From a bacterium HR15 (lineage in GTDB: Bacteria > Armatimonadota > Fimbriimonadia > Fimbriimonadales > GBS-DC): 55,640 nucleotides of DNA. The notes under the pieces are model-generated. The model was not told where the DNA came from. It was given only the letters and a program-made list of their open reading frames with translations, and ran no database searches. The DNA is taken from NCBI GenBank assembly GCA_002898555.1, contig BEHR01000024.1:1-55640 (forward strand), read 5' to 3'. The position numbers were made by a program, and so were the translations under genes. This document shows positions 19,273-23,470 of this stretch, piece by piece (the first letter of the stretch is position 1; each line of letters starts with the position of its first letter).

Positions 19273-21252
19273 ATGTTCAAGCTCAATTCGGAATTCACTC
19301 CGCGTGGGGATCAGCCCCAAGCGATTGCAAAATTAGTGGAGGGGCTGCGAAGAGGGTACGATTTTCAGACCTTGCTGGGCGCAACGGGCACGGGCAAAAC
19401 CTTCACGATGGCAGCTGTGATTGCTGAGGTGCAGCGTCCTGCATTGGTGATCGCGCATAACAAAACCCTTGCTGCCCAACTCTGTCAGGAGTTTCGTGCC
19501 TTCTTCCCAGAAAATGCTGTGCAATATTTCATTAGTTACTATGACTACTATCAACCAGAAGCTTATATCCCTCAAACTGATACCTACATCGAGAAGACGG
19601 CTTCGATTAATGATGAGATTGACCGCTTGCGCCATGCCGCTACACAAGCTGTATTGGAGCGCCGTGATGTGATTGTTGTTGCCAGTGTCTCTTGTATTTA
19701 CGGCTTGGGTTCACCTCAGGAGTATATACGCAGCATCGTCACGGTCAAGCGAGGCGACCTGTTGGACCCACGCGAACTGGCGATGCGCTTAGTGGAGCTG
19801 CAGTATGTGCGCTCCGATATGGTGCTGGGGCGCGGCACTTTCCGCATTCGGGGCGATGTGATTGATGTGCAGCCAGCCGATGAGGAGTTAGTGACTCGTA
19901 TCGAGCTGTTTGGTGATGAGGTGGAGCGCATCTATGAATACGACCCACTCAAAGGCGAGATTGTCGCGGAGTTAGAGCGCGCGACTTTCTTTCCCGCCAC
20001 GCACTATGTTACCCCTTGGGATCGCTTGGACAGCATTATTGAGCAGATTCGCGAGGAGCTGGAGCACCAGGTGCGCTATTTCGAGTCGCAAGGACGGCTA
20101 TTGGAGGCGCAACGCATCCGCCAACGCACCGAGATGGACATCGAAATGATGCGTGAGCTGGGCTACTGCAACGGTATCGAGAACTACTCGCGCTATTTCG
20201 ATGGACGCAAGCCGGGCGAGCCACCCTATACACTATTGGACTACTTCCCCGACGATTTCATCGTGTTCATTGATGAATCACATCAAACTGTGCCACAACT
20301 ACGGGGCATGTACAATGGCGACTTGCAACGCAAGAAGACACTGGTTGAGTATGGCTTTCGGTTGCCTTCCGCAATGGACAATCGCCCGTTGCGCTTCGAG
20401 GAGTTTCTGGCGCGTGTTAGGCAAGTCATTTTCGTCTCTGCAACGCCCGGACCCTTTGAGCGGCAGGTCAGTAAGCAGATTGTGGAACAGATTATACGCC
20501 CAACGGGTCTGGTGGATCCAGAAATCATTGTGCGCCCCACCGCAGGACAGGTTGACAACCTGGTCGCGGAAATACGGCGGCGCATTGAACGCAACGAGCG
20601 GGTGTTGGTAACGACGCTGACCAAAAAGATGGCGGAGGATCTGGCCGAGTATCTTCAAGAGTTAGGGATTCGGGTGCAATACCTGCACTCCGATGTACAG
20701 ACGCTGGAGCGCGCCGAGATTCTGCGGGACCTACGATTGGGTATCTACGATGTGGTGGTAGGAGTGAACCTGCTGCGCGAGGGACTTGACTTGCCCGAGG
20801 TTTCGCTGGTGGCAGTGTTGGATGCAGATAAGGAGGGGTTTCTCCGTTCGGAAACCTCGCTCATTCAGACCATTGGGCGCGCTGCTCGCAACAAGTTTGG
20901 GCAAGTTATCCTTTATGCCGATCGTATCACAGGTTCGATGCAGCGTGCTATCGACGAGACGAACCGCCGTCGTCAGATCCAGATGGAGTATAATCGCCAG
21001 CATGGCATCGAGCCAGAAACTGTATACAAAGAAGTGCGTGAAACGGTGCGTGCCTACAGGGTGGCAGAAGAGCGTGAAACCTATCGGATCGTGGATACCG
21101 ACCGTGTGGCTTTTGAGGATTTGCCCTTGGTTATTAACAAACTGGAGCAGGAGATGCATGAGGCGGCAAAAGCGTTGGAGTTCGAGCGCGCGGCGATTTT
21201 GCGCGATGAGATTTTGCGGTTACGCAGGATTCTGGAACAGGCGCGCGTATAG
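19273..21252 (+). CDS. uvrB: Excinuclease ABC subunit B
   Basis: 659 residues, full length. UvrB receives DNA damage from UvrA, verifies it with a beta-hairpin and recruits UvrC. Walker A is GATGTGKTF (about 36-44). The damage hairpin region is [20 protein letters not shown]. The helicase box IDESH is present, then [19 protein letters not shown] and QTIGRAARN. The C-terminal UVR motif ([20 protein letters not shown]) binds UvrC. The start at 19273 has only a weak ribosome site. Two inverted repeats upstream may be control sites. uvrA and uvrC are not in the window. Confidence 0.98.
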
Positions 21253-21267
21253 ACTCCAGAAAATGGC

Positions 21268-21290
21268 TCTCCGTACCGAAAATACGGGGA
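21268..21290 (+). terminator. Weak hairpin after uvrB
   Basis: TCTCCGTA (21268-21275) pairs with TACGGGGA (21283-21290) with one G-U pair and a 7-base loop. There is no T-run, so termination is uncertain. Confidence 0.3.
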
Positions 21291-21291
21291 C

Positions 21292-21319
21292 TCAAGATCT
21301 GGAAGACAGTTGCCGATAA
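21292..21319 (+). promoter_or_regulatory. Sigma-28 (FliA)-like promoter of flgM
   Basis: GCCGATAA at 21312-21319 is identical to the FliA -10 consensus. Twelve bases upstream TCAAGATC (21292-21299) matches five of eight positions of the -35 consensus TAAAGTTT, the usual spacer being 11. The predicted start near 21326 is just before the riboswitch. Placement before flgM, an anti-sigma-28 gene, supports the call. Confidence 0.6.
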
Positions 21320-21337
21320 TAGAAAGCGAAGTAAGCC

Positions 21338-21429
21338 GAGGCAGAAAAGGGCAAACCTGCAGCGATGCAGGGGCGCAAAGCCTATGGGTCTGCCATGCAA
21401 GCGGCAGATAGCCAGGCTGCCTGTCTCCG
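21338..21429 (+). ncRNA. Cyclic di-GMP-I (GEMM-I) riboswitch
   Basis: The conserved nucleotides of the class I c-di-GMP aptamer are present in order: GGGCAAACC (21349-21357), a stem CCTGCA/TGCAGG capped by the GNRA loop GCGA, then GGCGCAAAGCC (21372-21382), a second arm TCTGCC/GGCAGA, and TAGCCAGGCTGCC closing the structure. The aptamer's 3' strand CTGCCT (21417-21422) is complementary to AGGCAG (21459-21464) in the flgM ribosome site, so ligand binding may release that site. A further hairpin CTTGCTGA/TCAGCAAG (21431-21452) lies between. Identity of the aptamer is strong; direction of control is inference. Confidence 0.92.
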
Positions 21430-21469
21430 GCTTGCTGAGTACAATCAGCAAGATGAGGAGGCAGAAGCA

Positions 21470-21757
21470 ATGCAAATCTCGTTAGAAGAGGTACGCAAGG
21501 TGGTGGCGGCGTATCATCAAAGCCGTCAAGCAGCAACTCCACCCCTGGAACCTGTGCCTGAAGCGGTCCAGGTGTCTGAGGAGGAGAACCTTCGGCTTGC
21601 TCAGGAGATCGCTCGGGAGCTGAGCGCAACACCCGACATTCGAACAGAGCGCGTCGCGGAATTGAAGCGATGCTTTGACATGGGCGAATACTCTATCTCA
21701 GCTGAGATGGTTACCAGCGCAATTATTCGTCGCATGCTGGCGGACCGCATCCGATAA
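21470..21757 (+). CDS. flgM: FlgM-like anti-sigma-28 factor
   Basis: 95 residues from ATG 21470 with GAGGAGG seven bases upstream; a longer frame starts inside the riboswitch and is rejected. The C-terminal 45 residues match FlgM: DIRTERVAELKRCFDMGEYS followed by ISAEMVTSAIIRRMLADRI. FlgM binds the flagellar sigma factor FliA and holds it off RNA polymerase until the hook is complete. The N-terminal half is variable and Pro/Glu-rich, as expected for a partly disordered secreted factor. No other flagellar gene adjoins it; fliL is about 20 kb away. A sigma-28-like promoter and c-di-GMP riboswitch precede it, and a terminator follows. Confidence 0.82.
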   Translation: MQISLEEVRKVVAAYHQSRQAATPPLEPVPEAVQVSEEENLRLAQEIARELSATPDIRTERVAELKRCFDMGEYSISAEMVTSAIIRRMLADRIR

Positions 21758-21762
21758 CCACC

Positions 21763-21796
21763 GGGAAAGGGGCAAATGCCCCTTTCCCGATCCATT
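21763..21796 (+). terminator. Rho-independent terminator after flgM
   Basis: GGGAAAGGGGCA (21763-21774) and TGCCCCTTTCCC (21777-21788) form a perfect 12-bp stem, followed by a weakly T-rich tail (ATCCATTTT). It separates flgM from parA. Confidence 0.75.
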
Positions 21797-21834
21797 TTGC
21801 AGGAATTGACCCCTTCATCCCGAAATAAGCTTCC

Positions 21835-22620
21835 GTGGCAACTGCGGGCTGGCTCTTAGCGGTCGTTAATCAGAAGGGTGGCGTTGGTAAAACGACCACC
21901 GCGGTCAACTTGGCAGCGGAATTGGCAGCCCAGGGCGATGAGGTGCTGCTTGTGGACGCCGATCCCCAGGCGAACGCCACGAGTGGGTTGGGTTTCTCGC
22001 CCACTGACCTTGCGCACAACCTTTTCGAGGTCCTGCAGGATGAGTGTTCCATCGAGGAAGCCATCATCCCATCGGGGCGTGTCCATCTACATCTTATTCC
22101 CGCCAGTATTGATTTGGCAGGAATCGATCTTCTTTTTGCCACGCGTATCGCGCGCGAAACCGTGCTGCGTACTCTGCTTACACCCCTGTGTGAGCAGTAC
22201 CAGTGGATTATTATAGACACTCCTCCCTCGCTCGGAGTGCTTACCATCAATGCACTGGTGGCGGCAAACGGGCTGATTGTGCCACTGCAGTGTGAATATT
22301 ATGCTCTGGAGGGGTTATCCCGCCTGATGCAGACGATCGATTTGGTCCGTCAGCACTTGAACCCTTCACTTGAGATTTGGAAAGTGTTACTCACAATGTA
22401 CGATTCGCGCACAAAGCTTGGGGAGCAGGTAGAAGCAGAGGTGCGCAAGTTTTTTGGCGCGAAGGTAACACGCACGGTAATCCCGCGGAATGTGCGGGTT
22501 GGGGAAGCTCCCAGCTTTGGTCAGCCTGTGGTAGAATATGATCCCCGTTCACGGGGCGCAGTGGCTTATAAAGCATTTGCTCAGGAGGTGAAGGAATATG
22601 GTGCGTCGCGGTCTCGGTAA
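21835..22620 (+). CDS. parA: Chromosome partitioning ATPase ParA/Soj
   Basis: 261 residues from GTG 21835, the only start fitting the conserved N-terminus; no clear ribosome site, so it may be leaderless. ParA dimers bind DNA with ATP and are released by ParB, moving the origin region. Deviant Walker A KGGVGKTT (14-21), DADPQANAT, and Walker B-like WIIIDTPPSLGVLT are present. MinD-like membrane helices are absent. Overlaps parB by 23 bp, the usual operon. Confidence 0.97.
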   Translation: MATAGWLLAVVNQKGGVGKTTTAVNLAAELAAQGDEVLLVDADPQANATSGLGFSPTDLAHNLFEVLQDECSIEEAIIPSGRVHLHLIPASIDLAGIDLLFATRIARETVLRTLLTPLCEQYQWIIIDTPPSLGVLTINALVAANGLIVPLQCEYYALEGLSRLMQTIDLVRQHLNPSLEIWKVLLTMYDSRTKLGEQVEAEVRKFFGAKVTRTVIPRNVRVGEAPSFGQPVVEYDPRSRGAVAYKAFAQEVKEYGASRSR

Positions 22621-23470
22621 AGGCTTGAGTGCCTTATTATCGCAAAGCGAGCTGGAAAACCATATGGTGCAGGAAATTCCCATTGCTCAAATCCGTCCTA
22701 ATCCCTATCAGCCGCGGCGGGTATTTGATGAGGACTCGTTGCGCGAATTGGCGGATTCAATCCGTCAAGTAGGCTTGCTGCAACCTGTTATCGTCAGAAA
22801 GGAAGGGGCTGAAGAGTACACGCTGGTGGCTGGTGAGCGACGCTTGCGAGCCGCGCAAATGGCAGGATTGGAACGCATCCCTGCGATCGTGCGCACACCT
22901 TCCGAGCAGCAGATGCTGGAGATGGCTCTTATTGAGAACCTGCAGCGCGAGGATATTAATCCTATAGATGCCGCGTTGGCTTACAAGCATTTGATGGAGG
23001 AGTTTGGGCTAACTCAGGAACAGGTGGCGATGCGAGTCGGCAAAAGCGTGCCTGCTATCTCGAACACGCTGCGTCTGCTTCAGCTACCCGACTATATTCA
23101 GGACAGCATCAGGAATGGGTTAATCAGTGAGGGGCATGGACGCGCGCTGTTGATGGTCAAGGATCCCGTTCAACAACAGCAGTTGTGGCGACAGATTACG
23201 ACCGATGGGTTGAGTGTGCGTGCTGCGGAGTTGCGCGCCCGTGAATTGCGCTCACCTGAGCAACCTGTTCACCCAGGACCTCCCACCTATCCATTGCCTT
23301 CCTCACCCCCACCTGAGTTGAAGGCTTTAGAGCATAATCTAAGTGCTTATCTGGGTACAAAGGTGAAGGTCGTGTATATGGAAGGTGGTGCAGGACGCAT
23401 CGTGATTGAATTTTACTCGGAGGAGGAGCTTGGGCGCATTCTGGAAATGATCGCCCCAAACGGATTTTAG
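22598..23470 (+). CDS. parB: Chromosome partitioning protein ParB/Spo0J
   Basis: 290 residues starting inside the parA end. ParB binds parS, spreads as a CTP-dependent clamp and stimulates ParA. The N-terminus MVRRGLGKGLSALL is the ParA-stimulating peptide. CTP-binding signatures are PNPYQPRR and AGERRLRAA, with ENLQRED between. A helix-turn-helix follows (LTQEQVAMRVGKSVPAISN). The C-terminal dimer domain ends IVIEFYSEEELGRILEMI. A proline-rich linker is near 225-245. A parS-like inverted repeat lies at its stop codon. Confidence 0.97.
   Translation: MVRRGLGKGLSALLSQSELENHMVQEIPIAQIRPNPYQPRRVFDEDSLRELADSIRQVGLLQPVIVRKEGAEEYTLVAGERRLRAAQMAGLERIPAIVRTPSEQQMLEMALIENLQREDINPIDAALAYKHLMEEFGLTQEQVAMRVGKSVPAISNTLRLLQLPDYIQDSIRNGLISEGHGRALLMVKDPVQQQQLWRQITTDGLSVRAAELRARELRSPEQPVHPGPPTYPLPSSPPPELKALEHNLSAYLGTKVKVVYMEGGAGRIVIEFYSEEELGRILEMIAPNGF

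Follow-up and report, generated by a model that had tools for sequence, protein, structure and literature searches.

The anti-sigma factor gene flgM is sigma-28-dependent in Salmonella. A flagellar sigma factor that drives expression of the very protein inhibiting it sets up negative feedback, and the same arrangement is found in C. difficile, where flgM is sigma-D-dependent (PMC5386303). Flagellar genes can also be under a class I c-di-GMP riboswitch: in C. difficile, one of these, Cd1, switches the flgB operon OFF (PMC6366702, PMC5386303). Here we describe an flgM locus of the bacterium HR15 (order Fimbriimonadales, phylum Armatimonadota), located in a window of 55,640 nucleotides (the whole stretch of DNA that was analyzed). 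Judged from its sequence, the locus very probably forms a negative feedback loop on FliA, the flagellar sigma factor, that is gated by c-di-GMP.

In the circuit we propose, a FliA-type sigma-28 factor would transcribe a message that carries a single gene, the one for FlgM, which inhibits this sigma factor. As long as c-di-GMP is absent, the aptamer's 3' strand would cover the ribosome site through 8 bp and a hairpin; no FlgM would be made and FliA would remain active. When c-di-GMP rises, helix P1 would close by taking up this strand, which would free the ribosome site and allow translation of FlgM; FlgM would presumably bind and sequester FliA, and the late flagellar genes would stop, with the expected consequence for motility. 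The flgM mRNA would be present only in cells with active FliA, which would leave the brake pre-loaded in motile cells, and a working brake would cut off its own mRNA supply.

Promoter, aptamer and gene in HR15

The features of the locus are given in Table 1. The flgM product matched PF04316 at 37.7 bits (curated cut-off 25), and the terminator-like hairpin behind the gene suggests that flgM is monocistronic. The upstream neighbor is uvrB (named by eye from its open reading frame). Directly behind flgM, at 21835-23470 of the window, stand parA and parB (ParA and ParB domain matches), which places this flagellar regulator outside any flagellar cluster. FliA (247 bits; G000:C20:10426-11094), flagellin and FliK are all encoded in the HR15 genome.

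Table 1. Features of the HR15 flgM locus, in window coordinates
Feature	Position	Strand	Basis or remark
-35-like element CTCAAGAT	21291-21298	+	sigma-28 (FliA) type; two-box matrix score
-10 element GCCGATAAT	21312-21320	+	sigma-28 type; GCCGATAA(T), 13 nt after the -35
Aptamer helix P1, 5' strand AAGCCG-A-GGCAG	21333-21344	+	covariation; extended form in HR15's family
Class I c-di-GMP (GEMM-I) aptamer with GNRA tetraloop	21341-21425	+	Rfam models
Switching strand CUGUCU-C-CGGCUU	21421-21433	+	predicted: P1 3' strand when bound, anti-ribosome-site strand when free
Hairpin CUUGCUGA/UCAGCAAG	21431-21452	+	stacked within the predicted ribosome-site-sequestering structure
Ribosome binding site GGAGGCAG	21457-21464	+	predicted ligand-free partner: 21421-21428
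flgM, anti-sigma-28 factor, 95 aa	21470-21757	+	PF04316; alignment with relatives
Intrinsic-terminator-like 12-bp hairpin, 3' of flgM	21762-21789	+	1 found, 0.6 expected in shuffles

We scored promoters with a two-box matrix that was refined on Fimbriimonadales loci and compared with shuffled sequences. The HR15 dyad, CTCAAGAT-N13-GCCGATAAT (21291-21320), scored 22.1, whereas no shuffled sequence scored above 14.0. Across 83 Fimbriimonadales loci the consensus was CTAAAGAA at -35 and GCCGATAAT at -10; the gap between the boxes was 13 in 69 loci, 12 in 12, and 11 and 14 once each, and the score exceeded the shuffled 99th percentile in 75/83. HR15 departs from the consensus in its -35 by a C for an A (TCAA versus TAAA), and has, with this TAAA-like -35, a GCCGATAA -10 and the conserved spacing, the attributes of a sigma-28 promoter. 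Spacing between the -10 and the aptamer is likewise constrained in these loci (median 22 nt; 18-33 nt, 5-95%). Of the 40 loci read outside Fimbriimonadales, 38 also passed this percentile when the matrix was applied unchanged.

Known FliA targets of HR15 carry the same -10 element. Five exact matches to TAAAGN(14-16)CCGATAA were found in the genome; two stand before flagellin and fliK, a third lies upstream of a glycosyltransferase-like open reading frame, a fourth stands directly before the gene of a 132-aa protein, and the fifth appears to be a chance match. The 132-aa protein (L225, G000:C18 near 43809, minus strand) has a weak, below-cut-off match to the Orn/Lys/Arg decarboxylase N-terminal domain.

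A second promoter is frequent at the flgM genes of other bacteria, and flgM of HR15 might be transcribed mainly from such a promoter, with GCCGATAA incidental and c-di-GMP control operating outside any sigma-28 feedback. We consider this quite improbable, given that the dyad keeps its spacing and distance in 75/83 loci and recurs outside Fimbriimonadales, that a search for sigma-70-type promoters in 21240-21860 found none, and that the flagellin gene of the same genome has this motif upstream. We infer that the flgM mRNA starts from the sigma-28-type promoter.

The aptamer was matched by two Rfam models, RF03167 (c-di-GMP-I-GGC; 63.4 bits, E 1.1e-12, gathering score 59) and RF01051 (c-di-GMP-I; 60.2 bits, gathering score 35), and is the sole c-di-GMP-I match in the 3.04-Mb genome. 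The equivalents of the ligand-contact residues G20, A47 and C92 are all present (G20 and A47 by pattern count, C92 by eye in the alignment). At the A47-equivalent, 123/123 loci have an A; at the G20-equivalent, 121/123 have a G, HR15 among them. Two aptamers upstream of flgM, L112 (in G083) and L117 (in G088), have an A at the G20-equivalent (UAGCA versus GGCA) and, from this base, may sense a different dinucleotide.

The better score of the GGC model and these two relatives are what would speak for an aptamer that senses another cyclic dinucleotide, for example cyclic AMP-GMP, or that belongs to a GGC type with a ligand of its own; residue G20 has been described as a selectivity factor (PMC9262584), and its position is associated with cyclic AMP-GMP-sensing GEMM-I RNAs. 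The RF03167 consensus, GCGAAGCC, has a G at the A47-equivalent, to which we take the name 'GGC' to refer, and HR15 reads GCAAAGCC, with the canonical A; the best-scoring Rfam name is therefore not evidence of a different ligand. We set the GGC assignment aside and filed the aptamer under c-di-GMP-I. Another ligand is improbable for HR15, considering its G20, which it shares with nearly all loci, the A47 that is canonical throughout, an RF01051 score far above the cut-off (60.2 versus 35 bits) and the five GGDEF domains encoded in the genome. These features support a class I c-di-GMP riboswitch, from which class we infer both the identity of the ligand and the affinity for it.

Much of this had been anticipated in a preliminary description of the locus, which named flgM (the product also aligns with its relatives), a FliA-type -10 followed directly by a full class I aptamer, and a sigma factor making its own inhibitor. 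The covariance models agree with the aptamer call, the order of -10 and aptamer is kept in relatives, and the conserved sigma-28-type promoter before flgM favors the feedback; the -35, 13 nt 5' of the -10, had been overlooked.

Alternative helices in the flgM leader

We aligned 14 leaders of HR15's family for helix tests. The extended P1, 12 pairs between the two strands listed in Table 1, was paired in 92.7% of alignment cells, and both sides had changed in 5 pairs, a covariation score reached by 0/500 shuffles (significance values take no account of kinship among the sequences). The ribosome site GGAGGCAG is complementary over 8 bp, one of them G-U, to CUGUCUCC in the 3' strand of the aptamer, and the 8 pairs of this helix were kept in 93.8% of cells in the family. 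Covariation of the ribosome-site helix was not beyond chance in the 14 leaders: the changes were one-sided because the Shine-Dalgarno strand is fixed. Covariation cannot therefore support this helix, and its support comes from conservation of pairing and from energy.

The sequestering hairpin was predicted at -23.7 kcal/mol, compared to -12.3 for shuffles (z -5.1), and pairing exceeded that with shuffled start regions (11.1 versus 0.8 expected pairs in HR15). In folding predictions, whose energies ignore cotranscriptional folding and ligand, the ligand-free closed state was favored by 4.6 kcal/mol in HR15, and nine more leaders of the family favored it too, with margins of 0.8-5.3 kcal/mol; the states were balanced in L047 and L059 and reversed, with P1 kept, in L053 and L058. 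When P1 was forced, the open fraction of the HR15 ribosome site rose from 0.22 to 0.60.

The 3' strand of P1 is also a strand of the ribosome-site helix, and the two states thus exclude each other, as in a translational ON switch; because forced P1 opens the ribosome site, translation of flgM is predicted to be switched on by c-di-GMP. The complementarity between ribosome site and aptamer 3' strand that the preliminary description reported is the 8-bp helix above. The RNA-level brake it proposed gains support from the mutually exclusive helices and from P1 covariation, and the polarity it implied, c-di-GMP permitting FlgM translation, is that of the predicted states.

Conservation and platform diversity in Armatimonadota

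To the HR15 genome we added 100 relatives, giving a Fimbriimonadales sample of 101 genomes from 46 genera. RF01051 matches were found in 82/101, and the order promoter, aptamer, flgM in 83/101 (86 with three sub-threshold matches at this place), with a median of 29 nt between aptamer end and flgM start codon. Seven Fimbriimonadales genomes had flgM with no aptamer detected. FlgM was scanned for with a subset alignment, the all-family alignment being too variable. Outside Fimbriimonadales, comparison of coordinates by hand revealed aptamer-flgM linkage in no fewer than 48 Armatimonadota genomes, spread over at least 10 further families; 40 of the linked loci were read in sequence. In Armatimonadota families f36-f45, flgM is present and the c-di-GMP-I matches listed include none from these families, as might follow from loss of the riboswitch or its replacement by another sensor. 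Strong c-di-GMP-I aptamers of Fimbriimonadales were also seen at L108 (G078:C15:29084-29180), not adjoining flgM, and at L171 (G171:C5:746206-746294).

A comparison phylum, sampled around a Desulfovibrio genome, has both parts, with c-di-GMP-I matches in 34/79 genomes and flgM in 49/79, and among the aptamers listed, judged by coordinates, the two adjoin in 0/49 flgM-bearing genomes. Chance linkage was ruled out on this comparison, and because the promoter score (75/83 loci) and the phylum-wide aptamer-flgM linkage are conserved.

The region through which the aptamer would act differs among groups. In 38 relatives whose FlgM starts with M-[RQK]-I-S-D, flgM codons 3-5, UUUCAGAC, are the partner of the P1 3' strand, of which GUCUGAAA is an example. 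This pairing was stronger than in synonymous recodings (mean z -1.9 in the 38 sequences versus +0.36 in 45 controls; codon usage for the null was pooled from these same flgM genes). The wobble base of the Ser codon (codon 4) matched its P1-strand partner in 36/36 scored sequences, as A-U in 29, G-C in 5, and C-G and U-G in 1 each. Departures from A-U were found in five genera (g28, g20, g22, g8 and g26), a spread that makes a single event unlikely. The codon pairing was tried as a platform for HR15's own family as well, and was not used there (mean z -0.2).

In some other relatives, among them G028, G047 and G078, the ribosome site is paired by the 5' strand of P1 instead. Two examples from families f31, f32 and f35 were folded, and in the prediction a terminator with a U-run takes the aptamer strand GGCAAACUC as its partner. 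Leaders at L246, L248 and other loci of these three families carry GGGUUUGCCUUUUU, which is complementary to AAAAAGGCAAACUC of the aptamer itself; a terminator formed by GGGUUUGCCUUUUU would, in the modeled fold, use the aptamer 5' strand and thus exclude ligand binding.

Every one of these platforms competes with the bound aptamer, so all predict one sign, c-di-GMP switching FlgM on. The opposite polarity, in which c-di-GMP represses FlgM and raises FliA activity, has precedent in the aptamer class: GEMM-I aptamers serve as ON or OFF elements, and Cd1 is OFF on the flgB operon (PMC6366702, PMC9262584). For the flgM leaders we judge it improbable. P1 excludes the ribosome-site helix in HR15 and its family; the codon 3-5, 5' P1 strand and GGCAAACUC terminator platforms likewise compete with the bound aptamer; and such a switch would run counter to the way c-di-GMP usually affects motility.

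It is conceivable that the aptamer is a decayed remnant that has lost switching, and some Fimbriimonadales relatives do score at only 25-35 bits with Rfam. Compensatory changes in P1, the coding wobble match across genera and retention throughout the phylum point to current selection, and make decay extremely improbable. On a wider reading, the riboswitch on flgM is probably of old standing in Armatimonadota and a principal means for c-di-GMP to stop flagellar gene expression there, with one polarity (ON) and at least four platforms: ribosome-site pairing, flgM codons 3-5, the 5' P1 strand and the aptamer-strand terminator.

Relation to known flagellar and GEMM-I systems

A class I riboswitch on flagellar genes and a sigma-driven flgM are each known singly, and we found no report of both on one mRNA. 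The preliminary description knew of no described case with all three parts, which agrees with our search of the open-licence literature, in whose accessible text no c-di-GMP riboswitch on flgM was found (the founding GEMM papers lie outside this scope). The proposed circuit is unusual in that the sigma factor would supply the mRNA of its inhibitor while the messenger would decide whether it is read. It would tie a second messenger directly, with no protein receptor, to the sigma/anti-sigma switch of the late flagellar genes, and would do so in a phylum where genetics has hardly begun. Since the predicted sign is constant while the platform changes, Armatimonadota offer a natural set for platform replacement under constant function, in which one platform is written into synonymous codon positions of flgM, the regulated gene itself.

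Compared with Salmonella and C. difficile, in which FlgM is controlled by transcription or secretion and for which we found no description of an flgM riboswitch, HR15 differs by an apparent gating of flgM translation by c-di-GMP. Cd1 resembles the HR15 leader in aptamer class, in its place in a flagellar mRNA leader and, as far as the prediction for HR15 goes, in the lowering of motility by high c-di-GMP (PMC5386303, PMC6366702). Cd1 is, however, a transcriptional OFF switch on an early operon that contains sigD and has a sigma-A promoter (same sources), whereas the HR15 switch targets an anti-sigma factor, lies behind a sigma-28-type promoter and is predicted to be ON. Further parallels are the GEMM-I ON switches Vc2 of V. 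cholerae (PMC12564702) and pilM of Geobacter (PMC9262584), in which a bound aptamer excludes a repressive structure, as predicted for HR15; the pilM leader can form either its aptamer or its terminator but not both, and the same is predicted for the leaders of several further families of Armatimonadota. Vc2 and pilM act on other target genes, and pilM senses cyclic AMP-GMP (PMC9262584). In HR15, by comparison, the ribosome site would be sequestered by the P1 3' strand, and in many of its relatives flgM codons 3-5 are paired.
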